A stretch of DNA of 64,000 nt, from contig NC_016027.1 of the NCBI RefSeq assembly GCF_000182745.2, positions 561,001 through 625,000 on the forward strand, written 5' to 3'. Positions 31,160 through 50,637 of the stretch are shown one piece after another. Within the stretch, counting starts at the first letter, position 1, and every line of letters starts with the position of its first letter. Under the pieces are notes generated by a model, which had not been told where the DNA came from, searched no databases, and saw only the letters and a program-made list of their open reading frames with translations. The DNA comes from Komagataeibacter medellinensis NBRC 3288. GTDB taxonomy: Bacteria > Pseudomonadota > Alphaproteobacteria > Acetobacterales > Acetobacteraceae. The translations under genes were made by a program, and so were the position numbers.

Positions 31160-32602
31160 ATGAAACTGATCGCCGGAACGACCATCATGGCCGCCACGAT
31201 GCTGTGCCTGACGCCACGCGCGCATGCGGATGCCGCCAATAGGCAGGAATCGTTACTTGTAAAGAACGCCTACATCTTTTCCATGGCCGACAAATACCGC
31301 AAACCGTTTACCGGCTACATGCTCATTGATGCCAGCGGCACCATCACCGCCATCGCACCGGGCGCGCCGGGCCGGCGCATTCATGCCACGACCACGCTCG
31401 ATGCGCACGGCCACTGGGTCATGCCCGGCTTCATTTCCGCCCACAGTCACCTATGGCAGGCCGCCTATCGTGGCCTGGCACAGGACAGCACGCTACTAGG
31501 ATGGCTTGACGCCTTGTATGACAAGACCGCCAGCCATGCCCGACCCGAGGATTTCTACTGGTTCACGCTCGATGGCGCGCTTGACCATCTGCAGCATGGC
31601 ATCACCACCGCCTACAACTTCAATTACGGCAACCACTGGGGGCAGCCGGCCACCGAGGCCGATAACGTGGACCACCAGCAGTTCCGTGCCGAGATGGATT
31701 CTGGCCTGCGCTTCGTGCACGGTATCAACCCCACGGCGGATACGGTCGACCATTCGCTGGCTGGCGCGCGCCAGCACCTGCGCGGCTTCATTGACTGGAC
31801 ACAGGCCCAGCCCGCCAGCACAGCGTTCCTTTCCATCATGCTCAACGGCACTGCCGCCTTTCAGGGAACACCGGCCCGCGCGCTGGATGAGGCGATGCTG
31901 GAGGGAAGCCTGATGAAAGAGTTCGGGTTAGGCAACCAGACGCATTACCTTGAACCCCCCGACCATGTTGCCGCCCAGCAGGCAATCTTTCCCTATTTTG
32001 CCCAGAGCGGCATGATGGGGCCGAAGCTGATCTTCGGGCACTTCATCCACACCACACCCGAAATCCTGGCACAAACGGGCCGGGCAGGGGCCGCCATGTC
32101 ATGGAACCCGCTTTCCAACGGACGGCTGGCTTCGGGCACGGCGGATATTCCCACCTACCTGAAAAATGGCATCAGGGTCGGCATGGGTGAGGACGGGGAG
32201 GCCAGCGCCGACCTGGCCGACCCGTTCGAAAACATGCGCACGGGGCTGTACGCCATCCGTGACAGATACCAGAGTGCCAGCATCATGAGTCCATACGACG
32301 TGCTGCGCCTGCATACGGTGGGCAGTGCGGCGGTACTGCAGGCATCGGACCGTCTGGGCAGTCTTGAGCGGGGCAAATACGCGGATTTCCTGATCATTGA
32401 CCCCACGCACCTTGCCCACGTGTTCGACCCTTACGCCACCCTTGTGCTGGCCGCATCCATGCGGGATCTGGAACAGGTGTATGTGGGCGGCCATCTGGTG
32501 GTGGACCACGGCCGGGTGCTGACACGCGACATCAATACGGTAGAGGCACAGGCCGACCAGCGCGTGGCGGCATCGCTGCCGGGCCATGACCGCCACCATT
32601 AG
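31160..32602 (+). CDS. Exported amidohydrolase (TRZ/ATZ-type deaminase-like)
   Basis: The 480-residue protein begins with a Sec signal (MKLIAGTTIMAATMLCLTPRA) and belongs to the amidohydrolase superfamily subgroup with chlorohydrolases, guanine deaminase and related nucleobase deaminases. Metal residues are the HxH in FISAHSHLWQA (His 95 and 97), a His in LIFGHFIHTT and the Asp in GMGEDGEAS. SWNPLSNGRLASGTADIPTY is the strongest subgroup marker. Its periplasmic location is unusual. It opens the purine-related stretch, so a nucleobase or nucleoside substrate is plausible, but only by context. Confidence 0.75.
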   Translation: MKLIAGTTIMAATMLCLTPRAHADAANRQESLLVKNAYIFSMADKYRKPFTGYMLIDASGTITAIAPGAPGRRIHATTTLDAHGHWVMPGFISAHSHLWQAAYRGLAQDSTLLGWLDALYDKTASHARPEDFYWFTLDGALDHLQHGITTAYNFNYGNHWGQPATEADNVDHQQFRAEMDSGLRFVHGINPTADTVDHSLAGARQHLRGFIDWTQAQPASTAFLSIMLNGTAAFQGTPARALDEAMLEGSLMKEFGLGNQTHYLEPPDHVAAQQAIFPYFAQSGMMGPKLIFGHFIHTTPEILAQTGRAGAAMSWNPLSNGRLASGTADIPTYLKNGIRVGMGEDGEASADLADPFENMRTGLYAIRDRYQSASIMSPYDVLRLHTVGSAAVLQASDRLGSLERGKYADFLIIDPTHLAHVFDPYATLVLAASMRDLEQVYVGGHLVVDHGRVLTRDINTVEAQADQRVAASLPGHDRHH

Positions 32603-32981
32603 ACCCGACCTGTTCAGTCGGTTCTGTTGAACGCGGGACGTGCAGCATTTCATGACCCTGCATGAAAAGGCTGCACGCCGTTTGCAACGGCCAGCGCCAT
32701 CTATACGCGGCATACCGGTACGCGACATTACGCGCAATGTGCGGTTATCGAGACCGGTTGCCGCAGATCCCACCCCACGAGGATCGATACGACCCCGTGT
32801 CAATTAAAAGGCAACAGCGTGTGGCTTTCTTTCTATTTGGCGCCATACAGTCCCGTCGCTAACCTTCATTCATCCCTTTGGCACAGGGTCCGCTCATGCG
32901 GGAAGAAAAACGACCCTGCCGCGCCCGGAACCAACGCGTTCCATGGCGGATGTGACATGAAAATGACAATGGAAGTATTTG
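32603..32981. other. Non-coding interval
   Basis: Between the amidohydrolase and NUP genes I see no supported ORF. The final 30 bases provide the ribosome site (GGAAG) for the NUP gene. Confidence 0.4.
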
Positions 32982-34064
32982 ATGGCTGACCAGAGGCGAA
33001 GCAGGTTCCCTGCCGGTATTGTTACATCTGTCCTGCTTGCGGGAGCGGCCTGCCTGCCCATGGCCGCGCAGGCGGCTCCACCGGTGCAGGAGGTGCGCTT
33101 CGTTGTCGTGACCAACTGGGAAAATGGGGCCGATAGTGGTGACGCCCCCGGTGAATACCAGAACTGGGTAGAACGCGAACACCTTGATGAAAAGGTACCC
33201 GTGCGCGGCGCGCCCGATGTGGTCCGGCGCAGCAAGGCAGGGCTGTACGGCATGGTGCTGCGCCACGGGGTAACCGACCTTGCAGCCTTCGTGCTCGATC
33301 CACGGTTTGATTTCCATCATACCTACTGGCTGTTTACCGGCATCTCGGGCGTGGACCCCAACGTCGCCTCGGTTGGCAGTGTGGCGTGGGCGCGCTGGGT
33401 TGTCGATGGCGATGCGCTGCGTGAGATCGATGACCGCACCATTCCCAAAGACTGGCCCTACGGCCTGTATGCCATTGGCGCCTCCCGCCCCAACACCCTG
33501 CCCGATGCACCGGACCATTATGGCTCAGTCACCGATGTGGCGGAACTGACGCGGGCCTATCCGCTCAACCAGGGTCTGGCGCGCTGGGCGTTTGCACTGA
33601 GCCAGAAGGCCAACCTGGCCGATGATCCCGCCATAGCCATCAGGCGCCAGGCATGGACAGGCTTTGACCAGGCGCGCAAGCCACCCTTCATCCTGATGGG
33701 CGAGACACTGGGGGCCGAGCGCTACTGGCATGGCGCGCCGCGCAACCGCTGGGCACAGGACTGGGTCCGGCTCTGGACACACGGACAGGGCCAGTTTGTC
33801 ATGACGAATGAGGAAAGCCAGACTTATCAGCGCGAAATGCGCACGCTGGCAACACTCGGCTTTGTCGATCCCGACCGGATCATGGTACTGCGCTCGGGTA
33901 GCAATTTCTCGCTCCCGCCACCGGGCGTTGCGGTTACGCAGTCAATGGGGGATGAAGCACCAGGCCAGTCACTGGCCTTTGACAACAATGAACGCGCGGG
34001 CGCGCCGGTTATCGAGGCCATTCTGGCAAACTGGCAGAAATACCGTAACCATATCCCTTCGTAG
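32982..34064 (+). CDS. Exported NUP-family protein (purine nucleoside permease/phosphorylase-like)
   Basis: The 360-residue protein has a signal peptide (GIVTSVLLAGAACLPMAAQA) and the pattern of the NUP family: VVVTNWENGADSGDAPGEYQ, then NWVEREHL, WARWVVDGD and WARDWVRLW-like helices. NUP was named for a Candida purine nucleoside permease, but bacterial members are soluble secreted proteins and are placed near the nucleoside phosphorylase fold, so a periplasmic nucleosidase or nucleoside-binding role is likely. ATG 32982 is preferred to the TTG just before it. The neighbouring RNase T2 and phosphatase genes fit nucleotide breakdown. Confidence 0.75.
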   Translation: MADQRRSRFPAGIVTSVLLAGAACLPMAAQAAPPVQEVRFVVVTNWENGADSGDAPGEYQNWVEREHLDEKVPVRGAPDVVRRSKAGLYGMVLRHGVTDLAAFVLDPRFDFHHTYWLFTGISGVDPNVASVGSVAWARWVVDGDALREIDDRTIPKDWPYGLYAIGASRPNTLPDAPDHYGSVTDVAELTRAYPLNQGLARWAFALSQKANLADDPAIAIRRQAWTGFDQARKPPFILMGETLGAERYWHGAPRNRWAQDWVRLWTHGQGQFVMTNEESQTYQREMRTLATLGFVDPDRIMVLRSGSNFSLPPPGVAVTQSMGDEAPGQSLAFDNNERAGAPVIEAILANWQKYRNHIPS

Positions 34065-34407
34065 GCACCTATTCCCCCCGCCCGGCGGGACAGAGCACTT
34101 TCGTGGCAGCCATGATGAACCATACTTCCACCGCTCACGCATGCGGGCACAGGGCCAGCACACTGGTGGCCTGATGCATTGGCGCGATGCAGCGCGGATA
34201 CGACCCCGCTCTGCCTGCCTGCGGGGTTGATGCCGCCGCGCACACGATTGTCACGCAGCGGCTGGAAAAGGCCGGGTACGGCTGGCCTTTGTCCTTGACC
34301 GGGATCTGGCAGGCATTGACCCGAAACCCGGCCGGTAAGGGAAAGCATTTTTTACAGGGCAGTCCCTTATGCCGCGCCGTGCCACACTACGGCACGGCCT
34401 GCGGCCA
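34065..34407. other. Non-coding interval between convergent genes
   Basis: It lies between the plus-strand NUP gene and the minus-strand RNase T2 gene. AAGGGA and TCCCTT near 34335-34369 may form a weak hairpin that ends both transcripts. No supported gene. Confidence 0.35.
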
Positions 34408-35223
34408 TTAGCCTGCCTGTGTCGTGGCGGGCCATGCGGGCACATGGAAGCGGGCCGGGCAATTATCCTGCACATCGGGCGAGGGCAGGAATCCCGAAGC
34501 GGCGGGGAAGCGGCCAAGACCACGCGGATCGAGCGTGAACCACAGCTGTGCCAGCACCGTCTGACCCTGCGCGTCGGTATTGCAACGGAACTGCAATCCG
34601 CGCTGCGGCAGGGGGCCATATGCCTTTTCAAATGATGCCAGCACATCAGCCTTGCTGATCTCCTGCCCGGCATCATGTTCAAGGTCGCGGCCCACAGGGC
34701 CTGCGGCAAAGCGGTCGCGCAGCGTGCTGGCCACCGTGAAAAAGCGTTCGGCATTCATGCCAAAGCACTGCACATGTTTGGTGTATTCATGCGTGACAAG
34801 GCTGGAACGGGTATGGGCCACGGTCATCGAAAGCCGTTTTGCCAGCACGGGGGAAAGCCGGGGTGGCGTGTCATCATGGTTGTAGATGTCACACCCCTTG
34901 TTCCACCACATGGTTACGGGCAGGCCATCATGCACCAGATCGGAGGGCAGGGAAGCCCATAACCCGTGCAGTCCGATCACCGGCGTGTGCGGCTGGTCGG
35001 GCTGGCAGCTCGGCCCGTGGCGGTCGGTACAGAAGCCGGGCTGCCAGGTCAGCGCCAGTGTGTAATGGTCGAAATCACCATGCTGCGCTACGGGGATCGA
35101 CAGCGCATCGGAGCGGGCAGCGGGCGGCGTATGGGCGCATCCGGCCATAAGGGACAGGGTAGGGACAAGCACGGCCAGCGCCGGGCGCAGGCCACGAAGG
35201 GCGGTAAGGGCGCGTTGCAGCAT
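34408..35223 (-). CDS. Ribonuclease T2 family lipoprotein
   Basis: The 271-residue protein has a lipoprotein signal (ALAVLVPTLSLMAGC, Cys 29) and both RNase T2 active-site motifs: CAS I in VIGLHGLWASLP (His 86) and CAS II in VTHEYTKHVQCF (His 145, Glu 146, Lys 149, His 150). HYTLALTWQPGFC is the usual first strand. RNase T2 cuts single-stranded RNA to 3'-nucleotides through 2',3'-cyclic intermediates. A membrane anchor would keep the products near the cell. A phosphatase gene is just upstream on the same strand, six bases apart, indicating one operon. Confidence 0.9.
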   Translation of the reverse strand: MLQRALTALRGLRPALAVLVPTLSLMAGCAHTPPAARSDALSIPVAQHGDFDHYTLALTWQPGFCTDRHGPSCQPDQPHTPVIGLHGLWASLPSDLVHDGLPVTMWWNKGCDIYNHDDTPPRLSPVLAKRLSMTVAHTRSSLVTHEYTKHVQCFGMNAERFFTVASTLRDRFAAGPVGRDLEHDAGQEISKADVLASFEKAYGPLPQRGLQFRCNTDAQGQTVLAQLWFTLDPRGLGRFPAASGFLPSPDVQDNCPARFHVPAWPATTQAG

Positions 35224-35229: not shown

Positions 35230-36825
35230 TTATTTCCCTGCGGAATTCAGGTTTAAGGCATTCGTCAGATCACCAAGCGGCTGGCCGGTCGCCGCCTGTA
35301 TGGCGCGATCACGCACCACCACCCCGTCAAGCGGACGCAGGTGGTAGCGCTCGGTCAGGAATTTCAGGATCGAGGTCGTATCCTGCACCGTATGGTCCAC
35401 ATAACCACGCCGGGCATAGGGGGAGACAATAATGGCGGGAATACGCGATCCCGGCCCCCACCTGTCCCCTCTGGGCGGGGCAACGTGGTCCCACAGGCCG
35501 CCATTTTCGTCATAGGTCACGATGACCAGCATGTGTGGCCACTGTGGGCTTTTCTCCAGATGCGCGATCAGGTCGGCAATGTGCTGGTCGCCCGAGCGGA
35601 TATCGGCATAGCCGGAATGTTCGTTCAGATTGCCCTGCGGTTTGTAGAACGCAACCTGCGGCAGGGTACCGTGGTCAATGGCATCAATGAAGCGCGTGCC
35701 CGCAAGCCCGCCATCAAGCAGGTGCGCCGCGCGTGCCGGGGTGCCGGGGGCGTAGTTCAGGTAATAGTTGTAGGGTTGGTGATGGTACTGGAAATCGGGG
35801 GCCGGGTAGTGGTTTCCATGCTCCAGCACGTCCTGCCATGCGCCTGAATACCATGCCCATGTAATGTTACGCTCGCTCAGCCGGTCACCAATTGTGGCGC
35901 CGGTCTGCGGTGGCAGGGTCGTGGGCTGGGTCGGGTCAGCAAAGCGGGTATCCTGCCCGGCGGCAGGCGGGTTGCCGCTGGGCTGGTAGGCGGGCTGCAT
36001 GGTGTTCACGGCATGGAAATCGGGGGTCAGGTTGCCATCACGCACGAATTTGGGCACCCCCTCCAGCGCGGAACGGGGAGAATTGGGGGCCACCACCAGC
36101 GCCTTTCCCGATGCGTCGACCACCGAGATGACCGGATGCGCGGGGCTGGTATCAGCCTGCGGGTAATACGGCGCGCAGGCACAGGCCAGCCACTGGTGGT
36201 TGAGGAATGACCCGCCAAAGGCCCCCATGAAGAAGCGGTCCGCCATGGCATAGCGGCGCGCGACCTGCCACATCTGCATGGCCGAGCCGTTCCAGTAGCT
36301 CATGGGCATGGCACCGGAATCCGCCCATGCCACGAACATGTCGTTACGGCCGCCATTGATCTGCATCTGGTTTTCGTAAAAGCGGTGCCACAGGTCATGG
36401 GTCAGGGTGCTGAGCGCGACATTGAAGCCCTGCGGGTCGTCCACGCGGAAGGGCTGGTTGGGCAGGTGCGCGCTCATGGCCTGTGTCACCCCGTTGCGCA
36501 CGCCGCGCCCGGTCAGCCCGCCCCACACCGGGGGGAGTTCGCTCAGGATGGTGCCATCACGGTCACGCTGGGCAAAAAGGGCAGGGGGCTGGCCCGCAAA
36601 CGTGTCCGCACCGGGGAAGCCGTTGTACAGGTTATCGAAGGAGCGGTTCTCGGCAAAGATGACCACTACAGTCCTGACCTGCTCCATCTGTCGGGCGGAG
36701 GCGGCCTGCAACGGCCCTGCGGGCAGGACGGCTGCAATCGCACCGGCCAGCACGCCCGCGCGCCACACTCGCCCCCGGCCACGCGCAATGAAACGGGAGT
36801 GTCCTGAAGGGGGGCGTCGTGGCAT
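35230..36825 (-). CDS. Exported AcpA/phospholipase C family phosphoesterase
   Basis: The 531-residue protein has a signal peptide (VLAGAIAAVLPAGPLQAAS) and matches the phosphoesterase family of AcpA acid phosphatases and phospholipases C. Marks are VVVIFAENRSFDNLYNGFPG near the N-terminus, SFLNHQWLACACAPYYPQA, TYDENGGLWDHVAPP and GSRIPAIIVSPYARRGYVDH near the C-terminus. Such enzymes remove phosphate from many monoesters, including nucleotides. Being six bases upstream of RNase T2 on the same strand suggests that it dephosphorylates released nucleotides. Divergent from a GntR regulator. Confidence 0.85.
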   Translation of the reverse strand: MPRRPPSGHSRFIARGRGRVWRAGVLAGAIAAVLPAGPLQAASARQMEQVRTVVVIFAENRSFDNLYNGFPGADTFAGQPPALFAQRDRDGTILSELPPVWGGLTGRGVRNGVTQAMSAHLPNQPFRVDDPQGFNVALSTLTHDLWHRFYENQMQINGGRNDMFVAWADSGAMPMSYWNGSAMQMWQVARRYAMADRFFMGAFGGSFLNHQWLACACAPYYPQADTSPAHPVISVVDASGKALVVAPNSPRSALEGVPKFVRDGNLTPDFHAVNTMQPAYQPSGNPPAAGQDTRFADPTQPTTLPPQTGATIGDRLSERNITWAWYSGAWQDVLEHGNHYPAPDFQYHHQPYNYYLNYAPGTPARAAHLLDGGLAGTRFIDAIDHGTLPQVAFYKPQGNLNEHSGYADIRSGDQHIADLIAHLEKSPQWPHMLVIVTYDENGGLWDHVAPPRGDRWGPGSRIPAIIVSPYARRGYVDHTVQDTTSILKFLTERYHLRPLDGVVVRDRAIQAATGQPLGDLTNALNLNSAGK

Positions 36826-37031
36826 GAGGGGCTGACCTGCTGATATGGATGATGGCGTCAAGTCATGGACCATAAGGGCAAAACCGCCGGTAGCGCAATC
36901 CGGTGGAAAACCGTAACAATTCCCCCCTACGGGCAGGCTTGTCGCGCATTCTGTTTGCAGGCCACCCGTGCCATGCTAACGCCACGGGCACGTTTCACCC
37001 AAAACCTCTCTCGCAGGGATTGCCCCGGTTC

Positions 37032-37823
37032 ATGCACACGCTGTCAGATCCCCGCTCATCGCGCGCGCTGCACCACCAGATCGCCGAGGACCTGACCGGC
37101 CGGATCGGGCGCGAAGCGGAGTATTGCGACAGGCTACCCTCGGAGGCGGCATTATGCCGGATCTATAATGTCAGCCGCGTGACCATCCGCCATGCACTCC
37201 GGCACCTTGAAAATGCGGGACTGGTCTGCCGCCGGCAGGGCCGGGGCACGTTTGTCGTGCCATCCCAGCAGCGCCCACCCCCCGCACCCGCCCATCCGGT
37301 GGTCGGGCTGAGTGACATCCTGCACGCACACGGCATGGCGGTAGAGACGGAACTACTGGCGTTCAGCCTGGCACCAGCACCCGGGGACGTGATGGCCGCG
37401 CTGGGACTGGAAGGCCCGCAGGCCCTGCTGCTGCGGCGGCGTTACCTGATCGACCATGTGCCGGTGGCCGTGACGGAAGTGTACTATCCACCTGCCTTCC
37501 GGGGGTTCATTTCGGCACATGATGCCCGCCTCCATCCCTCCGCCACACTCATGACCGAGCATGTTGGCCTCCAGCTTGGCCGCACCCATATTACGGTGGA
37601 CGTGACGGGCGCACACCCTGGCCTTGCGGGCGAACTGGACATGGAACCGGGCAGCCCCATCATGGTCATGCGCCGCATTACCTGTGATGACGCGGGGAGT
37701 GCGTGTGAACACAGTACATTGCTGGCCCGGCCGGGCATTACCCGCTTTTCCATCACCGCGCATGGCGGCAGCCTGCCCGATACCGACTTCATCCCCCAAA
37801 ATCCATGGCCACCCGCCCAATAA
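37032..37823 (+). CDS. GntR family regulator with UTRA domain (HutC/FarR-like)
   Basis: The 263-residue protein has a winged-helix domain (LPSEAALCRIYNVSRVTIRH, then LENAGLVCRRQGRGTFV; residues about 25-85) and a UTRA effector domain (about 95-255, with LRRRYLIDHVPVAVTEVYYP). HutC/FarR types bind small metabolites. It lies divergent to the phosphatase/RNase unit and 87 bases ahead of the purine permease and adenine deaminase genes, so it probably controls one or both sides in response to a purine or nucleoside. Start at ATG 37032 is taken because upstream frame lacks domain similarity. Confidence 0.85.
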   Translation: MHTLSDPRSSRALHHQIAEDLTGRIGREAEYCDRLPSEAALCRIYNVSRVTIRHALRHLENAGLVCRRQGRGTFVVPSQQRPPPAPAHPVVGLSDILHAHGMAVETELLAFSLAPAPGDVMAALGLEGPQALLLRRRYLIDHVPVAVTEVYYPPAFRGFISAHDARLHPSATLMTEHVGLQLGRTHITVDVTGAHPGLAGELDMEPGSPIMVMRRITCDDAGSACEHSTLLARPGITRFSITAHGGSLPDTDFIPQNPWPPAQ

Positions 37824-37848: not shown

Positions 37849-37910
37849 GAATATAAGACAAGTTAATACAACCCGCGCACCATCACGGCGCGCCATGGGC
37901 GGGAGCGTCG

Positions 37911-39254
37911 ATGAAGCCAAATCTGCTGGAACGCCTGTTCCACCTGCGGGCCGCAGGCACCACGCCCGGCCGGGAGGTTGTGGCCGGCCTGGGCACGTTT
38001 GCGGCCATGGTCTACTGTGTTGCGGTCAACCCCGCCATCATGGCCAATGCGGGCATGGACCGCGCCAGTGAGCTTACGGCAACCTGCCTGATCGCCATTA
38101 TCGCCTCCGCCACCATGGGGCTGCTGGCCAACCTGCCGCTGGGGCTGGCGCCCGCCATCGGCTCCAACGTGGTGTTTGCCGTGGTGATGGTCCAGCAGAT
38201 GGGCGTGCCATGGCCGGCAGCGCTGGCCATCGTTTGCCTTACGGGCATCGTGTTCATGGTGCTGACGGTTACGAAGGTGCGCGAACGCATGGCCGACGGC
38301 ATGCCCGACTGCCTGCGGGTGGGCATACAGATCGCAGTGGGTCTGACCATCATGTTCATCGGGCTGCGCAATGCCGGCTTTGTGGTGGGCAACCACACAA
38401 CGCTTGTCACCATGGGTTCACTGTCCAGCCCCGCCGTCATGCTGACGTTTGCAGGGCTGGTCCTGACCCCGGCACTTGTGGCGGCAGGCGTGCCCGGCGC
38501 GCTCATCATCTCGATCATGGTGCTGACCGTCATCGGTCTGTTCGTGCCCGACGGACATGGGGGCATGATCACCCACTGGCCCACGCGGCTGTTCGCCATG
38601 CCGGTCTGGCCATCGGCCACGGCATTCCACCTTGATCCGGGCTACATCTTCCGCAATTTCTTCTATGTCCTGCCTGTCATCATTTTCTTCCTGTGCACGG
38701 AACTGTTCGGCACGCTGGCCAACCTGCTGGGCATTGCCAGCGCGGGCGGCATGCTGCGCCGTGATGGCTCGATCCCCAACGCCACGCGCGCCTTTGCGGC
38801 GGATGCGGCGGGTACGATCGTGGGGCCGGTGCTGGGCACCGCAGTCGTGGCGGTTTACCTGGAATCCGTGATCGGCGTGCAGATGGGCGGGCGCACAGGA
38901 CTTACGGCCGTGGTCATAGCGCTGGGGTTCGTGGCCGCCCTGTTCCTGTGGCCCCTGTTCATGATCATCCCGCCGCAGGCGACAACGCCTGCGCTGGTCA
39001 TGGTGGGGATCCTGATGTTTGGCGCCATATCGCGGCTGGACCTTACGGACATGACCCAGTCCGTGCCCGCGATCATGACCTTCATGTTCGCGGTGCTGAC
39101 GGGCAACCTGCTCAATGGCATGGCCTTTGGCACGTTCGCCTACATTGTCATGAACATTGCCGCCCGGCGCTGGCGCAGCGTGACCCCTACGGCATGGGGG
39201 CTGGGCGCGGTGATGGCCGTCTTCTTCATCGTCAGCATGAGCATGCGCCACTAG
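37911..39254 (+). CDS. AzgA-type NCS2 purine base permease
   Basis: The 447-residue protein has about 12 membrane helices and NCS2/AzgA family marks: GREVVAGLGTFAAMVYCVAVN-like first helix, GLLANLPLGLAPAIGSNVVF with the family's G-x-N region, RVGIQIAVGLTIMFIGLRNAG and VIGVQMGGRTGLTAVVIALG. The group imports adenine, hypoxanthine, guanine or xanthine with protons. It is followed at 39305 by adenine deaminase, whose probable ribosome site overlaps the stop codon, so uptake and deamination are coupled. Confidence 0.9.
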   Translation: MKPNLLERLFHLRAAGTTPGREVVAGLGTFAAMVYCVAVNPAIMANAGMDRASELTATCLIAIIASATMGLLANLPLGLAPAIGSNVVFAVVMVQQMGVPWPAALAIVCLTGIVFMVLTVTKVRERMADGMPDCLRVGIQIAVGLTIMFIGLRNAGFVVGNHTTLVTMGSLSSPAVMLTFAGLVLTPALVAAGVPGALIISIMVLTVIGLFVPDGHGGMITHWPTRLFAMPVWPSATAFHLDPGYIFRNFFYVLPVIIFFLCTELFGTLANLLGIASAGGMLRRDGSIPNATRAFAADAAGTIVGPVLGTAVVAVYLESVIGVQMGGRTGLTAVVIALGFVAALFLWPLFMIIPPQATTPALVMVGILMFGAISRLDLTDMTQSVPAIMTFMFAVLTGNLLNGMAFGTFAYIVMNIAARRWRSVTPTAWGLGAVMAVFFIVSMSMRH

Positions 39255-41995: not shown

Positions 41996-42574
41996 TTTAT
42001 CCAGTCCTGCCTAAAATATGATTGAAAGCGCCCCCAAGAAGCCGCATCGACCATACGACTTCGGAATAATTTCTTGCCCTACAAAATCATATTCGGCTAA
42101 CATAAATCAATAACGAACTAAAGTTCGCTTATCGAACATGTTCTGTCCCGTCATGTGTAAAGGGCCGCCCATGCAATTCCATGTCATCCATGTCATTTCC
42201 CCTGCGCACTACCGGAACATGGCACAGCATGAACCGACAGGTGCAGCCAGATGACCTGTCACTGCACACCACAGCGGCCCCACGCACCTGCTTCATGGTG
42301 CGGAACCAGACCATGCCCAATGACTGGCCACACGGAAATGGCGGCACGACAATGGCTCTTTCCTTCAACCTAGATCTGGCCACAACACGCTTTATGCACA
42401 GCGCCCCGCAGCGCGCAGTCATATTGGCGCACCGGGGCCTGCAACCAGCCTGTGCGCCGCTCAGCGTGGGGATTGACGCGTCAATACGCCTGCATATGGC
42501 ACCTAGGCCGGAAAACTGCCGTAATGCGGGCCTCCATGCCAATTGGCACGACGTGCCTGCTGTGGCCACCACCG
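41996..42574. other. Regulatory interval upstream of IclR gene
   Basis: AT-rich from about 42050 to 42130, followed by overlapping palindromes. Open frames to 42574 are GC-rich with no recognised family, so I do not call a gene. It is long enough to carry an unrecognised small gene or RNA. Confidence 0.4.
42114..42143. promoter_or_regulatory. Overlapping palindromes, candidate IclR operator
   Basis: Three overlapping inverted repeats: CGAACTAAAGTTCG (42114-42127), GTTCGCTTATCGAAC (42123-42137) and GAACATGTTC (42134-42143). The middle one has the GTTCG-N5-CGAAC form known for PcaR-type IclR proteins. It is about 120 bases from the IclR start. Confidence 0.6.
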
Positions 42575-43483
42575 ATGCCTGATGTCCAGGCCCGCGCGGC
42601 TGTGTCCCGCACCGCCCGGCGCCTGGTGCATGAGAGTACCCTGGAAATGACGCCCGCCTATGTCAGCGCGGCACGGCAGCGACCCGATGCCCTGCCGCAG
42701 GGCACGACCATTTTCATAACCTGGCTTACGGGCTTTGCATTTGGGCAGACACTGACAGCCTGCCGCAAGGTAAGGGAGTGGGGGTGCCAGCCCGTGCCAC
42801 ACCTGCCCGCGCGCGCTATGGCCGACCTGCCCATGCTGCGGATGATCGGGCAGGCCGTGACACAAGAGTTGCATACCGATACGGTCCTGCTCATAGCGGG
42901 CGATAAGGCAAAGCCCGCCGGCTGCCTTGCCGATACGCTGGCCCTGCTCCAGACAGGTACATTGCAGGAAAGCGGCATACGCAACATATACGTGGCCGGA
43001 CACCCCGAAGGCTCGCCGGTCATGCAGCAACCAGGGCAGGCCCTGTCGGTGCTACGCCAGAAGCAGGAAATTGGCCAGCGGGATGGACTGGACATCCGTA
43101 TCGTAAGCCAGTTGTGCCTTGACCCCGCTCCGCTACTGCAATGGGAGCGGCATCTGCGCGCCAACGGCATTACCCTGCCGGTGCATGTGGGGCTGCCCGG
43201 CCCGGTCCCGCCACGCATGATGATGCGCTACGGGATGAGATGCGGCGTTGGACCGGTGCTGCCGTTCCTGAAAGCACAGCGCGCCCTGATGCATCGCTGG
43301 TCATGCACCAGCACGCCCGAACAGGTAATCCGGCCGGTGGCACAGGTCATGACCACTACGCCCGGAACCCTGTTTCGCGGGTTGCATTTCTTTCCCTGCG
43401 GGGCCGTGGCGCGCACGCTGGGCTGGCGGGAAGCCGGCGGTATGCCCCGACAGGCCTATGCCAAGGGGTTGATGAACGCATAG
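42575..43483 (+). CDS. Methylenetetrahydrofolate reductase-like protein
   Basis: The 302-residue protein resembles the MetF family in its flavin barrel: TLEMTPAYVSAARQ, FITWLTGF, VPHLPARAMADL, DTVLLIAGDKAKPAG, SGIRNIYVAGHPEGSP and RIVSQLCLDP. These cover strand pattern and FAD-binding regions of MTHFR. It is divergent within this paralogous subgroup, which is found in one-carbon and demethylation clusters. Why it sits among purine genes is unclear; formate-level carbon from purine or methyl group metabolism is one idea. Start at ATG 42575 by similarity. Confidence 0.7.
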   Translation: MPDVQARAAVSRTARRLVHESTLEMTPAYVSAARQRPDALPQGTTIFITWLTGFAFGQTLTACRKVREWGCQPVPHLPARAMADLPMLRMIGQAVTQELHTDTVLLIAGDKAKPAGCLADTLALLQTGTLQESGIRNIYVAGHPEGSPVMQQPGQALSVLRQKQEIGQRDGLDIRIVSQLCLDPAPLLQWERHLRANGITLPVHVGLPGPVPPRMMMRYGMRCGVGPVLPFLKAQRALMHRWSCTSTPEQVIRPVAQVMTTTPGTLFRGLHFFPCGAVARTLGWREAGGMPRQAYAKGLMNA

Positions 43484-43550
43484 TTCGTTGTCAATACGGT
43501 GTGTTATCATCGCAATCACGTCCACCAACCATTTAGCCGGGATAGGTCCC

Positions 43551-44846
43551 ATGCTCGATACACGCCTGTTTTTTCCATCCTTTCTGGCATGCTGTATCCT
43601 TATGGTGGCAATACAGACCAAGGCCGCATCCCTACCGCAGGCGGACAGTCCGTACGGTGACGGAGGTACGAGCGCCTTCTATACACCCGACGGGGCACTC
43701 CCCACTCCCGGCACCATGATCCGCACCGAGGCGTTCAGCACGCCCCACCTGCCAGATGGCACCGCGCGCGCCATCCGCACACTGTATAGCGCAACGGACG
43801 GGGTCGAGGACAACGGCACAGCCATTGCCGTCTCGGGCCAGATCCTACTGCCGCCGGGCAAGCCCCCCCGGCATGGCTGGCCCATTGTTGCGTGGGAACA
43901 CGGCACAACCGGCATCGCCGATATATGCGCGCCCTCGTGGCGGGGCTACTCACCACGCGACCGGGTCTATCTGGCCCATTGGCTTGCCGCCGGTTTTGCC
44001 ATTGTTGCTACGGATTATCAGGGGCTGGGTACACCGGGGCCGCACCCGTACCTGCTTTACCGGCCCGAAGGCTACAGCGTGCTGGATGGCCTGAGCGCGG
44101 CGTTGAAACAATTCCCCACGCTGCTGCGCAACCAGATCGTGCTGGTCGGGCAGTCCCAGGGATCGGGGGCGGCACTGGGAGCAGCATGGCTTGCGCCGAC
44201 CCATGCGCCTGCATTGCATATCCTGGGCGTGGTGGCGACGGGCGTGGTGGCGGACTTCCACATTACCGCCCCCGCGCGGCACACCGCCATTCCGGCTGTC
44301 TATACCGACCCGGCACAGATGGATGCAGCCTTTGCCATACTGCGGGTAGAAGGTACGGATCAGAGCCTGAACCCGACACGCAATGCGGACACCGTGCTGA
44401 CACCCGCAGGCCGCGACTACGCACGTCAGGCCCGGACATCATGCCTGCATGACCTGTTCACCTATGCGGACAGGACGCATGTTTCCGCGTCCACGCTGTT
44501 CAACGCGGGGCTGGCCGATTACGAAAAACGTCATGACGCAGCCTTCCAGATTCCCGACGGGCATATCGGTGTACCCGTCTTTGTCGGCACCGGTCTTGCC
44601 GATGGGGAAGCAGGAACAGCGGGGCAGTACAATGCCGTGGCCGCAATGTGCGATGCGGGCACGCGGGTCGAGTGGCATGAATATCCGGGGCTGACCCATA
44701 ACGGGGCGGTCAATGCATCGGTACAGGATTCCCTGCCCTTCGTGAAACGGCTGATCAGGAACAGACCCGTGGCCAGCACCTGCGCCACCCTGATCCAGCC
44801 CGGCCCGATCCAGCAGGCGACGCCAGGCATCCGCTGGAACAACTGA
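43551..44846 (+). CDS. Secreted lipase-type alpha/beta hydrolase (paralogue)
   Basis: The 431-residue protein has a signal peptide (FFPSFLACCILMVAIQTKAA) and the same family core as the gene at 18525: WPIVAWEHGTTGIADICAPS, FAIVATDYQGLGTPGPHPYL, the elbow VLVGQSQGSGAAL, GTGLADGEAG and the His region GLTHNGAVNASVQ. So the catalytic Ser, Asp and His are present. Some secretory lipase family members act on acyl esters; in this context an esterase on nucleoside or polysaccharide esters is imaginable but unsupported. Starts at ATG 43551. Confidence 0.8.
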   Translation: MLDTRLFFPSFLACCILMVAIQTKAASLPQADSPYGDGGTSAFYTPDGALPTPGTMIRTEAFSTPHLPDGTARAIRTLYSATDGVEDNGTAIAVSGQILLPPGKPPRHGWPIVAWEHGTTGIADICAPSWRGYSPRDRVYLAHWLAAGFAIVATDYQGLGTPGPHPYLLYRPEGYSVLDGLSAALKQFPTLLRNQIVLVGQSQGSGAALGAAWLAPTHAPALHILGVVATGVVADFHITAPARHTAIPAVYTDPAQMDAAFAILRVEGTDQSLNPTRNADTVLTPAGRDYARQARTSCLHDLFTYADRTHVSASTLFNAGLADYEKRHDAAFQIPDGHIGVPVFVGTGLADGEAGTAGQYNAVAAMCDAGTRVEWHEYPGLTHNGAVNASVQDSLPFVKRLIRNRPVASTCATLIQPGPIQQATPGIRWNN

Positions 44847-45434
44847 CAGGGGCACTGCGCCCCATGACAGAGCGTTCACAACCGGCGCGATACGGTAGCT
44901 CCCGCAGTGCGCCATGGGGCTGCTACCGGTCCTGACGGATAGCAGCAGCAATGCGCCGCACCATGTCAGACACTATGGGGCAGTCCATCCCGGTCCCATC
45001 CGTCGGGGTGCCTTCGCCCGGTTCCATTATGGCATGGACTGGTCATGTCGCACCTGCCGCCATTGCCCTGCCGTTGCTGACTGAGCGTGCCCTGCGCAGG
45101 GCCGGGAAGAACGCGCAGGCCCAACCTGTATGCCCAGATGGCAGGGCGTCTTGTTCATTCCATTAACATACTCGATGTACAATATTTTTCCGTGCACTTC
45201 GCGCGCGGGAATACAGAACCGATGCCTGTAAAAAACGATAGGGTGCACGGTTATTATTCATTTATATGACCAATTTTTAGGCATTTTTTATTTTTAATAT
45301 CATGACTTTTTCTCACCTTTGATTTACTATTGCATAAAAAGCAACATCGCGTTGTCTGCATTCCCAATTGGAAACAAGCGGTATGCATGGCATATCATCA
45401 GCCTACAACAACGCCCTGGAAATCTGGATATTCA
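44847..45434. other. Non-coding interval, partly AT-rich
   Basis: The first 320 bases are GC-rich without a supportable gene. From about 45170 to 45340 it is strongly AT-rich and likely holds the promoter of the following nucleoside hydrolase-like gene. Confidence 0.4.
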
Positions 45435-46556
45435 ATGTCTTTTCTTTCGTCACGCAACGCCCGCCACCGTCTTTGCGGCGTGCTTGTGGCCCTGGCGTGC
45501 AGCGTGCCGGCATATTCCGGGTTCGCAGCGGAAAACCGCAAGGTCATCATTGATGATGACGATAGCCTGTCACTGGCGGAGGCAACGCTGCTGAAAGCAC
45601 CGGGGGTGGATGTCCTGGGCATTACCGTTGCCAGCGGCAACCGGTGGCGTGATGATGAAATCAACCGCATGCTGCGCGGGCTGGAAATCCTGCACCGGAC
45701 CGATGTGCCCGTAGTGCCGGGGGCGATCTACCCGCTGATCAATTCAGAAAAGCTGACGGAGAAGTGGGAAAGCCTGTACGGCAGGTTGATCTGGAAAGGT
45801 GCGTGGATGAAGCAGTGGGTGGAACCTACCAACCAGCCCGAACCCAACTACCACGCGCCCGATGTCGTACCCACACCGGCGGATGGCAATGCAACCACAA
45901 AGCCGGCAAAGGAAATTGCAGCCAACTTCCTGATCCGCATGGTACACGCCTATCCGGGGCAGGTCACGATCGTGGCGGCAGGGGCCATGACCAACCTTGC
46001 CCTGGCCCAGCGGCTTGATCCTGAATTCGCCTCTCTCGCCAGGGAACTGGTCTATATGGGCGGCAGCCTGAACCCGCACCAGCAGCTTTCCACCGTGGCG
46101 GCAGGGCAGTATGCGCGTGAGTTCATCAATTCACCGCGGCGCGAATTCAACCTGCGTTTCGACCCGGAAGCCGCCAGCATTGTCATGCACGCCCCGTGGC
46201 ACAAGATGACCATGGTGCCGTCCGATCCCGCCACAGCCACGGAACTCAGCGCGGATTTCCTGCATCGCATCGCATCGCGCAATGCCGATATCAGCAAACT
46301 CGTCGCGCACTGGCAGCCTGGTTCACCCATGTGGGATGAAATTGCGGCAACCGTCTGGCTCAATCCGCAGATCGTAACCCGGTCCGCCACGCTCTATGTT
46401 GATATCAACACGCAGTTTGGCGCCGGTTACGGGGATACACTTTCGTGGTCGCCCGGTTACCAGCCCGATCTGGACGAACAGAAAGAAACCGTGATCGAAG
46501 CCATCAACCCACAGGCGCTTCTGGCTACGATGGAACAGGTCCTGGCACGCCCGTAA
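45435..46556 (+). CDS. Exported nucleoside hydrolase-like protein with altered metal motif
   Basis: The 373-residue protein has a Sec signal (RLCGVLVALACSVPAYSGFA) and the nucleoside hydrolase fold pattern: KVIIDDDDSLSLAEA, VDVLGITVASGNRWRDDEIN, VTIVAAGAMTNLALAQRLDP, ELVYMGGSLN and WDEIAATVWLNP. Canonical enzymes have D-x-D-P-G-x-D-D. Here residues 40-47 are D-D-D-D-S-L-S-L, so the last two Asp that bind ribose and calcium are Ser and Leu. Either the active site is reorganised for another substrate or the protein is a binding protein. A Tat-exported canonical homologue is at 49588. Start at ATG 45435 gives a clean signal peptide. Confidence 0.8.
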   Translation: MSFLSSRNARHRLCGVLVALACSVPAYSGFAAENRKVIIDDDDSLSLAEATLLKAPGVDVLGITVASGNRWRDDEINRMLRGLEILHRTDVPVVPGAIYPLINSEKLTEKWESLYGRLIWKGAWMKQWVEPTNQPEPNYHAPDVVPTPADGNATTKPAKEIAANFLIRMVHAYPGQVTIVAAGAMTNLALAQRLDPEFASLARELVYMGGSLNPHQQLSTVAAGQYAREFINSPRREFNLRFDPEAASIVMHAPWHKMTMVPSDPATATELSADFLHRIASRNADISKLVAHWQPGSPMWDEIAATVWLNPQIVTRSATLYVDINTQFGAGYGDTLSWSPGYQPDLDEQKETVIEAINPQALLATMEQVLARP

Positions 46557-47031
46557 CAGGATCGGGTAGCATACAGAATGTGTTAAAAAAGGCACAGTGT
46601 TGCTATTTTTTCACTAATAATACTTACATATTTATCGACATGTTTGGAATAATATATATTGTAATAGGTGGATACTTATAAAAATATACTGCGAAATCCC
46701 TATGGTCATCAAAATATAATCCGATAATTTTACTGTTAATCGTGGAAAATGCATTAATCTGAATTATGTTGTAAATATGACACAGTAAGTAATTAAATAT
46801 AGGCTGAGTTATATTATTTAATTTTATTTTTTTACGAATAAAAATAACGTTTATTTTTTATATTATCGTAATACTATATGTTTTACTTTCCGTTCGTCTC
46901 TGGACATCAGAAGGTGTTTGCACGAAAATAATGACATGAAGTGCACCCGTGCGATTGTGGGGTGTGTGAATATCCGATCGTCTGGCAAGCCGGGTATCGG
47001 ATCCGTTTCCCGGGGGGGGGAGGAAATTGAT
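46557..47031. other. Very AT-rich leader of the TonB receptor gene
   Basis: From about 46580 to 46900 the sequence is extremely AT-rich, with many T and A tracts, unlike the surrounding GC-rich coding DNA. It contains no supportable gene. A nine-G tract (47012-47020) sits directly before the ribosome site of the receptor gene. The first bases after 46556 might include the end of the nucleoside hydrolase transcript. Confidence 0.6.
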
Positions 47032-49449
47032 ATGAGAAGCTACATCCACGGTAACAGGACACTGTTTGCCATGTCGTGTCTGGTCACGACGTTCCTGACA
47101 ACGCTGGGCCCGGCCTCCCGGTCCATGGCGGCAACGGGCACTACAATCCAGCAGGGCAGTGGCCATGCGGGCCACACGGGCAGCCACACCACCGCAGCCA
47201 AGGCCACAGCACCTGCAAAACCGCAGTCGGTCGTGGCCACCGCAACGCCGGAAGTCATCCGCGTTGGCCACAGCCGTAGTGCGCGTGATGGCGGCGGTGG
47301 CATGATGCGCCTGGAAACCGCGCCGCATAGCGTACAGAGCGTGGGCAAGCAGTATATCGACATGAAAAGCCCGACCAATACGGCGCTCGACCTAATCAAG
47401 AACCTGCCCAGCATCAGTGTTTCCACGTCCGATACATCCGGTATACAGGGCGGCAGCATCATCAGCCGCAGCCTGACCGATGCCGACATGGGCCTGCTGG
47501 TTGACGGCGCACCCGCTGCCAGCGCCACCTACCTGTCCGAAGATGTGGATTCCGAAGACCTGGAAGCCGTGAATGTTACCCCCGGCAGTTCCGCAATCGA
47601 TATTCCCACCACCTCCGCCGCCGCAGGCGTGATAGATGAGCGTACCCACACGGCCAGCCATAAATTTGGTGGCATGATGGATTTCTCATACGGCACGAAC
47701 AACATGTCGCGTGAGTTCATCCGCCTGGAATCCGGTGATATAGGCAAGACTGGCATCCGGTCGTATTTCTCGTTCTCCAACACGCATGCACGTTCGTGGA
47801 TGGGTGCGGGTATCAACAGCCGCAAGCACATCGACTTCGGTCTACAAAAAGACTGGCAGAACGGGTCTTTTGCGAAGTTCTTCATCTCCTGGAGCTATGA
47901 AGATTTCACGATCGACAACTATTCCAATGCCGCCGAATTCTACCGGTACAAGCATACAGGCCAGGGCTTTGGCCGTAGCGCCGATCCATCGAGCAACAAC
48001 TACTGGGGCAACAACATTGACCATTGGAACCAGATCTTTCTGACGGCTCCGGTGCATATTGTCCTGCCCGCCAGGTTCAAGTTTGATATCACCCCGTATT
48101 TCAACTTTGGCCAGGGCTGGGATGGTTCACCCGGCAGACAGGCAACCGTGGGTACGAATACCGCCGATACGACATACAACAACTACACGTACGGCAACGG
48201 CACGGCCGTGGCCGCCGGCACAAACTTGACCAACTACTTCCTGGAAGATTATGCCATGGAGGTAGGCGTGACCGCCAAGCTTGGCTATGACATTGACCGT
48301 CATAACCATGCCTATGTCGGCTACTGGTACCAGAATCAAGATTACCTGACACACTTCCCCGTCAGCGCGCAAATGAGCAACGGCTTCAACCCGAGCCCGA
48401 ACAACAGCGCCTACCAGATGTACCAGAACGGCCAGCGCATGTTTCCCGGTAATGATGCTGGCTTTGAAGTCCACTCCATCTTCATTGGCGACAGCGCGAA
48501 ATACCTGCATGACAGGCTGACCATTGATGCCGGTTTCAAGTATGTCATGACCAATTACTGGTACAAGTCATTTGGCACCACCGGAACACTGAGTGGCCGG
48601 TATGGCGAAAACAACACAACACCGCTACCGCACCTGTCGATTGGCTATACCTTCAACAACCACCACCAGATCTATGTAAATGCCGAAGGTGACTTCCGTC
48701 AGCCTGCCCCCAGCGCCATCGCCAACAGCGGTATTGCAGGCGGCATGCCCAAGAACCAGTATTCCATCAAGGAAGAACTGGGCTACCGCTACCATGACAA
48801 GTACATTATGTTTGACTTGTCATTCTTCAACTACAACATCACCAACCGCCTGCTCAGCACCTATATCGGTGGTGGCCAGTCCGGCGTGGTGAACGGGGGC
48901 AACCAGACAGCGCGCGGCTTTGATGCCATGATCTCGAGCCGTCCGTTCCACGGTTTCAGCCCTTATGCATCGGTTGAATACCTGAACGCCCGCATGGATT
49001 CCAACATCGCAGCCCTGGCGGCAGATGGTACGACCAAAAGCTACTTCGCCACGGCAGGGCGCCAGGCCCCGCAGGCACCGCATGTCATGGCCAATTTCGG
49101 CCTGACCTACCAGAAGTACGGCTTCTTCGGTAACGCAACGCTGCACTATACCGGCTCGCAGTCCGTAACCCTTGCGGGTGATGAGCGGATCCCCGGCTAT
49201 GTTACGGATACACTTTCGCTTGGCTATCACTTCAAGCCGTTCATGTATGCCAAGTCGCCCACCTTCCGCCTTAACTTCACCAACCTTACCGGCGCTATTG
49301 TGCGCACCGGTGTCAGGGGTATCGGGACCAGCGGCGAACAGGTCCGTCTGATGAACGGCATGATGTCCTCTGCCAAGGCGGCCAACGGTGCCAGCTTCTA
49401 TGTCGAACCCCGCTTCAGCATGACGGGCACAATCTCCACCTCTTTCTGA
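47032..49449 (+). CDS. TonB-dependent outer membrane receptor
   Basis: The 805-residue protein has a signal peptide (residues 1-34), an extension rich in His/Gly/Thr, a stretch PEVIRVGHSRS that may serve as TonB box, a plug domain (NTALDLIKNLPSISVSTSDT, LTDADMGLLVDGAPAASATY, then DVDSEDLEAVNVTPGSSAID) and a 22-strand barrel ending in Phe (MTGTISTSF). AGGAAA is eight bases before the ATG at 47032. It lies between two exported nucleoside hydrolase family genes on the same strand, so nucleosides, nucleotides or short oligonucleotides are candidate cargo. That is inference. Confidence 0.9.
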   Translation: MRSYIHGNRTLFAMSCLVTTFLTTLGPASRSMAATGTTIQQGSGHAGHTGSHTTAAKATAPAKPQSVVATATPEVIRVGHSRSARDGGGGMMRLETAPHSVQSVGKQYIDMKSPTNTALDLIKNLPSISVSTSDTSGIQGGSIISRSLTDADMGLLVDGAPAASATYLSEDVDSEDLEAVNVTPGSSAIDIPTTSAAAGVIDERTHTASHKFGGMMDFSYGTNNMSREFIRLESGDIGKTGIRSYFSFSNTHARSWMGAGINSRKHIDFGLQKDWQNGSFAKFFISWSYEDFTIDNYSNAAEFYRYKHTGQGFGRSADPSSNNYWGNNIDHWNQIFLTAPVHIVLPARFKFDITPYFNFGQGWDGSPGRQATVGTNTADTTYNNYTYGNGTAVAAGTNLTNYFLEDYAMEVGVTAKLGYDIDRHNHAYVGYWYQNQDYLTHFPVSAQMSNGFNPSPNNSAYQMYQNGQRMFPGNDAGFEVHSIFIGDSAKYLHDRLTIDAGFKYVMTNYWYKSFGTTGTLSGRYGENNTTPLPHLSIGYTFNNHHQIYVNAEGDFRQPAPSAIANSGIAGGMPKNQYSIKEELGYRYHDKYIMFDLSFFNYNITNRLLSTYIGGGQSGVVNGGNQTARGFDAMISSRPFHGFSPYASVEYLNARMDSNIAALAADGTTKSYFATAGRQAPQAPHVMANFGLTYQKYGFFGNATLHYTGSQSVTLAGDERIPGYVTDTLSLGYHFKPFMYAKSPTFRLNFTNLTGAIVRTGVRGIGTSGEQVRLMNGMMSSAKAANGASFYVEPRFSMTGTISTSF

Positions 49450-49587
49450 TCGGCATACTGCCGTATCGGTTTATGGATGAATGCGGCTCTCCCACACGGG
49501 AGGGCCGTAGTTTCATGTAAACTGCATTCAGCGTATCGGGGCAGGCTGGCGTGCAGCCACATGCCCATTATTGAACAGGAACACATC

Positions 49588-50637
49588 ATGACGGATCTGC
49601 TCTCCAGACGTCATTTCCTTGCCGCTACGGGCGGACTGGTTGCAGGTGGCCTTGTGCGGCCCGTGCGCGCCGCCACCACGCCACGCAAGGTAATCGTGGA
49701 TGCCGATATTGGCGTGGATGATACCATGGCACTGCTGATGGTGCATTTTGCACCAGAGGTGGAGATCGTAGGCATCACCACCGTCAACGGCAATGGCACG
49801 CTGGCCAACACCACGCGCAATGCCCTGTTTCTGGCGGAAAAGTTCGGGATCAACGCCCCCGTGGCGAAGGGGGCGGGGATATCCCTCGATAACCGCAGCG
49901 AGACGGCGCCCACCTTCATCCATGGTGATAACGCCATGGGTAACATAGTATTACCCACCCACATCAACCGCACGGTAGATGCACGCCCGGCGTGGCGGAT
50001 GATCGTGGACATGGTCCGCGCCCACCCGCACGAGATCACGATCCTCGGGCTTGGCAGGCTGACCAACCTTGCGCTGGCCCTGCGGCATGATCCCGCCATT
50101 GCCGACCTGACGAAAGAAGTAATCGTGATGGGGGGTGGCTTTGGCCTGCATGGGGATCTGGGCAATGTCACACCTGCGGCCGAAGCCAATTTCAAAGGCG
50201 ACCCGCTGGCGGCCGACATCGCCTGTGGCGCATCTTGGCCCATGACCATCGTGGGCGTGGACGTAACATTCCAGACAACCATGAACGATGCCTACCTGCG
50301 CACCATACGCGACCAGGGCGGGGCGGGCAGTGGGCTGATATGGGATGTAACACGGTTCTACATGGCATTTCACAAACAGCGTCTGGGACTGGATTCCATG
50401 TACGTGAACGATGCTTCGGCCAGTGCCTACCTACTCAGGCCCGACCTGTTCAAGACCCGCAGGGGAGCCGTGCGGGTAGTCTGTGGCGGGGTGGCGGATG
50501 GGGAATCAATCCTCAAACCCGCCGGCAAGCACTTCCCCGCCAGTGCGTGGGACAACCGGCCCGAACAGGCCATCTGCGGCGATGTGGATGCAGACGGCGT
50601 GCGCACCCTGTTCGCCCAGGTCATGCGTGGCCACTAG
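49588..50637 (+). CDS. Tat-exported nucleoside hydrolase
   Basis: The 349-residue protein carries a twin-arginine signal (LLSRRHFLAATGGLVAGG) and a complete nucleoside hydrolase motif KVIVDADIGVDDTMALL (Asp 38, 40, 44, 45). Further marks are VEIVGITTVNGNGTLANTTR, ITILGLGRLTNLALAL and the central Met-Gly-Gly-Gly (VIVMGGGFGLHGD), with an Asp in the C-terminal region DVTRFYM. It should release ribose from nucleosides in the periplasm; purine or pyrimidine preference cannot be told. AGGA lies seven bases before the ATG at 49588. The next sequence, two bases after the stop, is an IS remnant. Confidence 0.9.
   Translation: MTDLLSRRHFLAATGGLVAGGLVRPVRAATTPRKVIVDADIGVDDTMALLMVHFAPEVEIVGITTVNGNGTLANTTRNALFLAEKFGINAPVAKGAGISLDNRSETAPTFIHGDNAMGNIVLPTHINRTVDARPAWRMIVDMVRAHPHEITILGLGRLTNLALALRHDPAIADLTKEVIVMGGGFGLHGDLGNVTPAAEANFKGDPLAADIACGASWPMTIVGVDVTFQTTMNDAYLRTIRDQGGAGSGLIWDVTRFYMAFHKQRLGLDSMYVNDASASAYLLRPDLFKTRRGAVRVVCGGVADGESILKPAGKHFPASAWDNRPEQAICGDVDADGVRTLFAQVMRGH

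Follow-up and report, generated by a model that had tools for sequence, protein, structure and literature searches.

The rus locus of Bacteroides thetaiotaomicron serves the use of ribose and nucleosides and combines TonB-type SusC/D uptake with nucleoside hydrolases; to our knowledge it carries no RNase T2, NUP protein or deaminase set. In Escherichia coli, RNase I, AphA and Tsx form a route in which a periplasmic enzyme of the RNase T2 family and a phosphatase feed nucleosides to the cell. Here we analysed a stretch of the 3.5-Mb genome (G000) of Komagataeibacter medellinensis NBRC 3288, a cellulose-making acetic acid bacterium, and describe an island in which exported enzymes and uptake proteins for nucleic acid components are clustered. 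The window, that is the whole stretch analysed, is 64,000 nucleotides long (C3:561001-625000), and island positions are counted from window base 1. With a probability of about 0.68, we read the island as a TonB-assisted periplasmic RNA-to-purine scavenging system that is partly eroded.

The island resembles rus in having outer-membrane TonB-type uptake together with nucleoside hydrolases. However, rus is aimed at ribose and uses a SusCD pair. In the E. coli route, unlike here, the genes are dispersed, entry is through a porin and nucleosides are cleaved in the cytoplasm. The purine operons of Sphingobium, Novosphingobium and Sphingomonas share with the island an NH1 orthologue, NUP, amidohydrolases, a purine permease and a TonB receptor, but they also carry xanthine dehydrogenase, and neither the RNase T2 nor the phosphatase has a match there at E 1e-8. 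Lysosomal nucleic acid digestion uses RNase T2 and PLD3/PLD4 (PMC12439944, PMC8497607). RNase T2 and an acid phosphatase are likewise found here, and relatives add a PLD3-like protein of putative nuclease activity, although the setting is a bacterial periplasm and the analogy is of parts only. For Asaia, tables of released proteins list a nucleoside hydrolase, a ribonuclease I, acid phosphatases and TonB-dependent receptors, each on its own (PMC12502724). No published description of this locus was found among the titles and abstract beginnings listed from an open-access subset of the literature. The island is a case of TonB-linked catabolic clustering, an understood kind of arrangement with a bold set of parts.

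Gene content of the island

Families were assigned by Pfam and NCBIfam profile searches of the open reading frames (ORFs) of the window. All those named in the initial annotation were borne out: RNase T2, phosphatase, NUP, two IU_nuc_hydro proteins, TonB receptor, amidohydrolase, permease, adenine deaminase-like protein (Ade), GntR and IclR. For the permease the family is Xan_ur_permease, and the name AzgA given in the initial annotation is putative. The features of the island are as follows.

31160-32602, plus strand: exported amidohydrolase, candidate purine-base deaminase (Amidohydro_1 Pfam match)
32982-34064, plus strand: NUP-family exported protein with a predicted phosphorylase/nucleosidase fold (PF06516; start read as 32982)
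34215-34310, plus strand: 3′-terminal relic of an S1/P1 nuclease gene (blastn against three relatives)
34408-35223, minus strand: RNase T2 family lipoprotein (Ribonuclease_T2 Pfam match)
35230-36873, minus strand: exported acid phosphatase, AcpA-like (TIGR03397)
36903-37823, plus strand: GntR/UTRA regulator, divergent from the phosphatase (Pfam; start perhaps 37032)
37850-37871, plus strand: 22-nt element preceding the permease gene, candidate operator or promoter (alignment of four genomes)
37911-39254, plus strand: nucleobase permease (Xan_ur_permease Pfam match)
39305-41071, plus strand: Ade (Adenine_deam_C and Amidohydro_1; start perhaps 39305)
45390-46556, plus strand: NH1, exported protein with a nucleoside hydrolase fold and a non-canonical N-terminal motif (IU_nuc_hydro)
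47032-49449, plus strand: TonB-dependent receptor of a clade often beside nucleoside or nucleobase genes (Pfam)
49561-50637, plus strand: NH2, nucleoside hydrolase with predicted twin-arginine (Tat) export (IU_nuc_hydro, VDADIGVDD motif)

The RNase T2 and phosphatase genes do lie six bases apart, as had been claimed (35223, 35230), and are probably co-transcribed on the minus strand. The plus strand carries the amidohydrolase and NUP genes, the GntR, permease and Ade genes, and the NH1, TonB and NH2 genes. NH1 is separated from the TonB gene by 475 bases and the latter from NH2 by about 110 bases, and these gaps point to several transcription units. These lie on both strands, which rules out the whole stretch as one operon. 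Judged by eye, the N-termini appear to suit export, with a lipobox (MAGC) on the RNase T2, a Tat-type SRRHFLA on NH2 and Sec-like signals on the others.

The phosphatase scores 796 bits against TIGR03397 (cut-off 363) and the RNase T2 40.6 bits against its Pfam model (cut-off 26). The latter keeps LHGLW and HEYTKH, which we take to be the RNase T2 catalytic-site motifs with their His/Glu/Lys/His residues. Amongst the proteins that may act on bases, the exported amidohydrolase keeps its HSH, H and D motifs and is 85-88% identical to its orthologues in three relatives. It falls below the cut-off of every model among the 25 of 35 NCBIfam models listed, and its substrate is therefore only a candidate. 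The claim of an adenine deaminase was sustained in part: Ade matches Adenine_deam_C in Pfam but reaches only 362 bits against the NCBIfam model 'ade' (TIGR01178, cut-off 472.5). Orthologues in the three relatives are 93-95% identical for the permease and 95-96% for Ade.

In the system that we propose, the RNase T2 lipoprotein would cut RNA to nucleotides, which the exported acid phosphatase would convert to nucleosides. Periplasmic NH2, probably NH1, and the phosphorylase-fold NUP would then release bases, and the exported amidohydrolase may deaminate one of these. The inner-membrane permease would import bases, whereupon the Ade-like protein would convert adenine to hypoxanthine and ammonia in the cytoplasm. 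The TonB receptor would most likely supply the periplasmic enzymes by passing nucleosides or related compounds through the outer membrane. The GntR protein may control these genes, and the main gain to the cell could be phosphate, nitrogen or purines.

The island across Komagataeibacter

A 19,951-base DNA query was compared with 19 genomes of the genus, its own included, with weak matches listed in part. Among the matches listed, the whole set occurs in the same order in 3 of the 18 other genomes, namely K. rhaeticus, K. oboediens and K. intermedius, each of which has it divided between two contigs. DNA identity in these is 84% for the RNase T2-to-Ade block and 81-84% for the close TonB gene, and the amidohydrolase, NUP, NH1 and NH2 were also matched. 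By profile search, RNase T2 is found in the same three species and the own genome (4/19). Phosphatase DNA without the rest of the set is more widespread, being present in at least 10 further genomes. Four phosphatase loci (L126-L129) from the 10 genomes with the phosphatase but not the set were compared, and each has a canonical nucleoside hydrolase no more than 1.6 kb from the phosphatase.

The three relatives carry additional genes. Upstream there is an NMT1-type ABC transporter, a creatininase-family protein and an amidohydrolase. Between NUP and RNase T2 there is an S1/P1 nuclease (PF02265), a PLD-domain protein and a carboxylesterase, to which K. oboediens and K. intermedius add a further amidohydrolase and a phospholipase C. 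Between the TonB gene and NH2 lies an adenosine-deaminase-family protein (PF00962) whose N-terminus would suit export. Each extra gene other than the ABC permease and ATPase was checked by Pfam in one copy or more. Against structures, the PLD protein matches PLD3 (E 5e-50) and PLD4 (E 1e-40). The S1/P1 nuclease is restricted to the three relatives (3/19), with no match in the own genome by profile search, and the genomes with a PLD3-like gene are the same four as those with RNase T2 (4/19). In the own genome this gene lies outside the island (C3:257801-258976) and is preceded by a TonB receptor 31% identical to that of the window (L130, C3:254860-258976). Adenosine-deaminase-family matches were found in 9 of the 19 genomes and not in the own genome.

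The interval from NUP to RNase T2 in the window is 343 bases. Within it, blastn aligns 96 bases (34215-34310) with the last part of the S1/P1 gene of each of the three relatives at 77-79% identity (E 1e-13 to 2e-16). Order and strand agree with those in the relatives, the frames are broken, and we read this relic as a deletion scar. A weaker blastn match to two relatives at about 44909-45017 (E 7e-4 and 2e-5) falls in the gene that follows the lipase there, the K. rhaeticus counterpart of which is of the MFS family. DNA comparison with the relatives gave no relic of the adenosine deaminase gene in the window. Because the S1/P1 relic lies between NUP and RNase T2, the window copy is best read from these alignments as a reduced version of a larger cluster. 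This qualifies the earlier claim that each step from RNA to imported base has a candidate: the series is fuller in the relatives, but the own genome lacks S1/P1 and adenosine-deaminase-family matches. The interpretation holds in outline, and the full system is found in the relatives and not in this copy.

It is conceivable, at somewhat less than even odds, that K. oboediens and its relatives have a complete TonB-fed periplasmic nucleic acid digestion, comprising S1/P1 nuclease, a PLD3-like 5′ exonuclease, RNase T2, phosphatase, an exported adenosine deaminase, NH1, NUP and an alphaproteobacterial TonB receptor dedicated to nucleosides. If true, an acid-loving bacterium would have a counterpart of the nucleic acid degradation of lysosomes.

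These comparisons also bear on whether the island is a chance neighbourhood of unrelated genes brought together by rearrangement. The set was not seen in 15 of the 18 other genomes, among the matches listed, and to this lack of conservation in most relatives can be added a probably unrelated module inside the island (IclR, an ORF without family and a lipase) and a phage baseplate gene 26 kb off. Against chance, the order is kept in four species, further nuclease-family genes join it, and independent clusters exist in other genera. The comparisons thus make a chance origin very improbable.

Putative nucleosidases, TonB receptor and clusters in other genera

The AlphaFold model of NUP has an alpha/beta fold (mean predicted local distance difference test, pLDDT, 74; predicted template modelling score, pTM, 0.79). 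All 50 Foldseek matches listed are enzymes of the phosphorylase/nucleosidase superfamily, including AMP nucleosidase, MTAN and purine nucleoside phosphorylase (E about 1e-7, probability 1.00, template modelling score 0.3-0.7), with a loose superposition (root mean square deviation 5.6-10.8). No solved structure related to NUP by sequence was found. A transporter or permease was rejected, since the predicted fold is phosphorylase-like alpha/beta and not that of a multi-span membrane protein. This predicted fold, together with a Sec-like signal, makes an exported nucleoside phosphorylase or nucleosidase the best reading of NUP.

The initial annotation had two exported proteins of the nucleoside hydrolase family. 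NH2 is canonical, scoring 254 bits against IU_nuc_hydro (cut-off 34) and keeping the standard Asp pattern (VDADIGVDD and GVDVTFQT), whereas NH1 belongs by family and fold without the usual motif. NH1 scores 164.5 bits against the same cut-off, and the 50 Foldseek matches listed for its model (pLDDT 76) are all nucleoside hydrolases (best E 3e-20). At the position of DTDPGQDD in 8 of 9 other NH proteins compared, it reads DDDDSLSL, and it thus has no complete DxDPGxDD metal/ribose motif. The second DD is absent from all 38 NH1-like rows, some of which are the same genome twice, and the acidic triplet and distal Asp are kept. We assume that the N-terminal Asp cluster DxDxGxDD and the conserved C-terminal Asp have roles in nucleoside hydrolases. 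Taken by itself, nucleosidase activity of NH1 is doubtful; in the best explanation of the island it would probably act as one. NH1 is 92-93% identical to the proteins of K. rhaeticus, K. oboediens and K. intermedius, and no plasmid-borne NH1 at 60% identity or more was found among 233 plasmid records.

The clade of the TonB receptor holds 20 other loci (52-64% identity), 8 of which have a nucleoside or nucleobase marker no more than three genes away: an NCS2 permease at four, a nucleoside hydrolase at two, and NUP and xanthine dehydrogenase at one each. Three NCS2 loci, two of them of the own genus, share one exbB-exbD context and are therefore not independent. The neighbour sets leave out a 110-aa ORF (L030:10758-11090) and a TonB-like gene (L073:13575-16067), the neighbour Pfam lists give the 25 commonest families, and L048 falls outside the TonB tree by the length limit. 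No solved relative of the receptor was found by phmmer at E 0.001. Our best guess from these neighbours is that its substrate may be a nucleoside or nucleobase. One of the eight marker loci is a second nucleoside locus of the own genome (L037, C3:440001-460000, at 452 kb), where a TonB receptor with 58% identity to the window's lies together with two canonical nucleoside hydrolases, an NCS1 permease and a CNT-type nucleoside transporter; its Indigoidine_A and PfkB genes look like pseudouridine catabolism.

Across 150 genomes of the family, NH1 (strong orthologues, E < 1e-120) was found in 9, NUP in 25, RNase T2 in 19 and the close TonB clade in 19, with all four in 6. NH1 is accompanied by NUP in 9/9 genomes (1.5 expected, P 2.5e-8; by genus P 9e-7) and by RNase T2 in 8/9 (1.1 expected, P 1e-7; by genus P 1e-5), P values to be read in light of related genomes not being independent. 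When only the 41 genomes with a TonB match among those listed are considered, P is 5e-4 for NH1-NUP and 2e-4 for NH1-RNase T2. In Acetobacter orientalis (L094), RNase T2, NH1 and the phosphatase lie within 5 kb. At another NH1 locus (L051, genome G048), an amidohydrolase with 61% identity to that of the window occurs in the same 20-kb stretch with creatininase, NMT1 proteins and DUF2165, like the K. rhaeticus region. Co-conservation, which had been proposed as a check, is therefore partial: the same order in 3/18 genus genomes and co-occurrence in the family beyond chance, but no single unit seen outside the four Komagataeibacter.

Five of seven RNase T2 loci in other genera (L061-L066, L068) were compared, in one of which the RNase gene itself was not called. 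At two of the five, RNase T2 shares a 20-kb stretch with phospholipase C and without NH genes. At L064 and L061, from two other genera, the phospholipase C near RNase T2 shares about 60% identity with its counterpart in the K. oboediens island, and a TonB receptor is also present.

Outside the family, 22 NH1 loci were found, 21 in sphingomonads and one in Granulicella. At least 18 are near xanthine dehydrogenase and/or deaminase genes and at least 14 have a TonB receptor followed by NUP, these counts being minima as the loci end at 10 kb; families were checked on examples. Two sphingomonad TonB receptors checked had no blastp match at E 1e-15 to the window receptor and were rejected as its orthologues, which suggests a separate TonB recruitment in sphingomonads.

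Alternatives, regulators and meaning

Besides the patchy occurrence in the genus, several observations weigh against a single scavenging system. NUP reads as two ORFs in K. oboediens, and motif scans found no regulatory motif common to the island genes. Within the 41 genomes with a TonB match, P is 0.08 for NUP-TonB and 0.25 for RNase T2-TonB. The genes are far apart on the one contig of G149 (NH1 at 0.53, TonB at 0.88, RNase T2 at 1.81 and NUP at 2.37/2.81 Mb). Of the eight strong NH1 loci in the rest of the family sample, seven hold none of the other 23 reference genes, and the same is true of A. musti; one of these loci spans only 8.7 kb. A hand-picked sister sample has a marker at 2/20 TonB loci compared with 8/20 in the clade (Fisher P 0.065), and the marker list was drawn up after some loci were known. 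Five of the 20 clade loci lie downstream of nadA-nadB-nadC. Lastly, in the structure comparison the PLD protein scores better against an entry named phospholipase (E 2e-65), its top match, than against PLD3.

This last match would fit two neighbouring systems, namely a phosphorus block (RNase T2 and phosphatase, with phospholipase C, S1/P1 and PLD in the relatives) and a purine/nucleoside block (amidohydrolase, NUP, permease, Ade, NH1, TonB and NH2). So would the different strands and transcription units of the blocks, and the two loci in other genera with RNase T2 and phospholipase C. However, the blocks interdigitate (amidohydrolase-NUP, RNase-phosphatase, permease-Ade, NH1-TonB-NH2), the A. 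orientalis RNase T2 and phosphatase occur with NH1, and the phosphatase is near nucleoside hydrolases elsewhere in the genus. Moreover, no pho box (CTGTCAT direct repeat, up to 3 mismatches) precedes the phosphatase, by a consensus that may not fit this group. Two separate systems are in our view unlikely, and a single partly eroded scavenging system is preferred.

The nad loci raise another alternative, in which the TonB receptor and nucleosidases serve precursors of nicotinamide adenine dinucleotide (NAD), such as nicotinamide riboside or nicotinamide mononucleotide (NMN), and not purine nucleosides. NMN_transporter also accounts for 3 of 114 sister-sample neighbours. Yet no NAD gene was recognised in the island, other clade members lie no more than three genes from an NCS2 permease, NUP, xanthine dehydrogenase or nucleoside hydrolase, and the five nadABC loci look syntenic and so perhaps reflect one event. 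We regard this alternative as far-fetched for the island and retain purine scavenging. The receptors of the five loci themselves (L038, L040, L042, L043 and L044) are possible NAD-precursor receptors.

With regard to control, five GTNTANAC sites, which are of the HutC type, occur in the window and none is near the GntR gene. The 22-nt element at 37850-37871 is near identical in the four Komagataeibacter genomes aligned (one base differs in one genome) between variable flanks, is single copy in the window and has no Rfam family. It is a candidate operator or promoter on the basis of this alignment. Three genes within the island probably stand outside it.

41252-41995, minus strand: IclR regulator (IclR Pfam match)
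42452-43483: ORF without Pfam match (Pfam search)
43488-44846, plus strand: lipase (LIP Pfam match)

IclR had been put forward as a regulator of the island. Its nearest profile is PcaR/PcaU, with a score under the cut-off, and its neighbours in the relatives are two FolD-family genes, a flavodoxin-fold gene and an ORF that reads as MetF-like, without a Pfam match; the window keeps the MetF-like ORF and the lipase. Because of this profile and these neighbours, we rejected a place for IclR in the purine regulon, of which it is probably not a member. The 41.2-44.9 kb stretch is probably unrelated to the island and probably a one-carbon module.

At the island's edge, 50634-51031 is repeated in several genomes of the genus and adjoins tRNA-Ser (51088-51180); it is like an insertion sequence fragment, without Pfam match. 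A search of the window with the tRNA 3′ end matched only the tRNA itself. None of three direct-repeat families detected in 10000-53000 touches tRNA-Ser, and Rfam at the gathering threshold found only the tRNA in 29900-51300. A Baseplate_J family gene lies at 4005-5129, and the first part of the window therefore contains phage or phage-tail genes.

Acetic acid bacteria live on plant sap and ferments, and the island makes the use of RNA and DNA from dead cells by these organisms directly testable. If true, a TonB receptor for nucleosides outside Bacteroidetes would correct annotations in many genomes, as would a nucleoside hydrolase family without the standard motif. Similarly, many proteins now annotated as 'purine nucleoside permease' would become exported nucleosidase-like enzymes.

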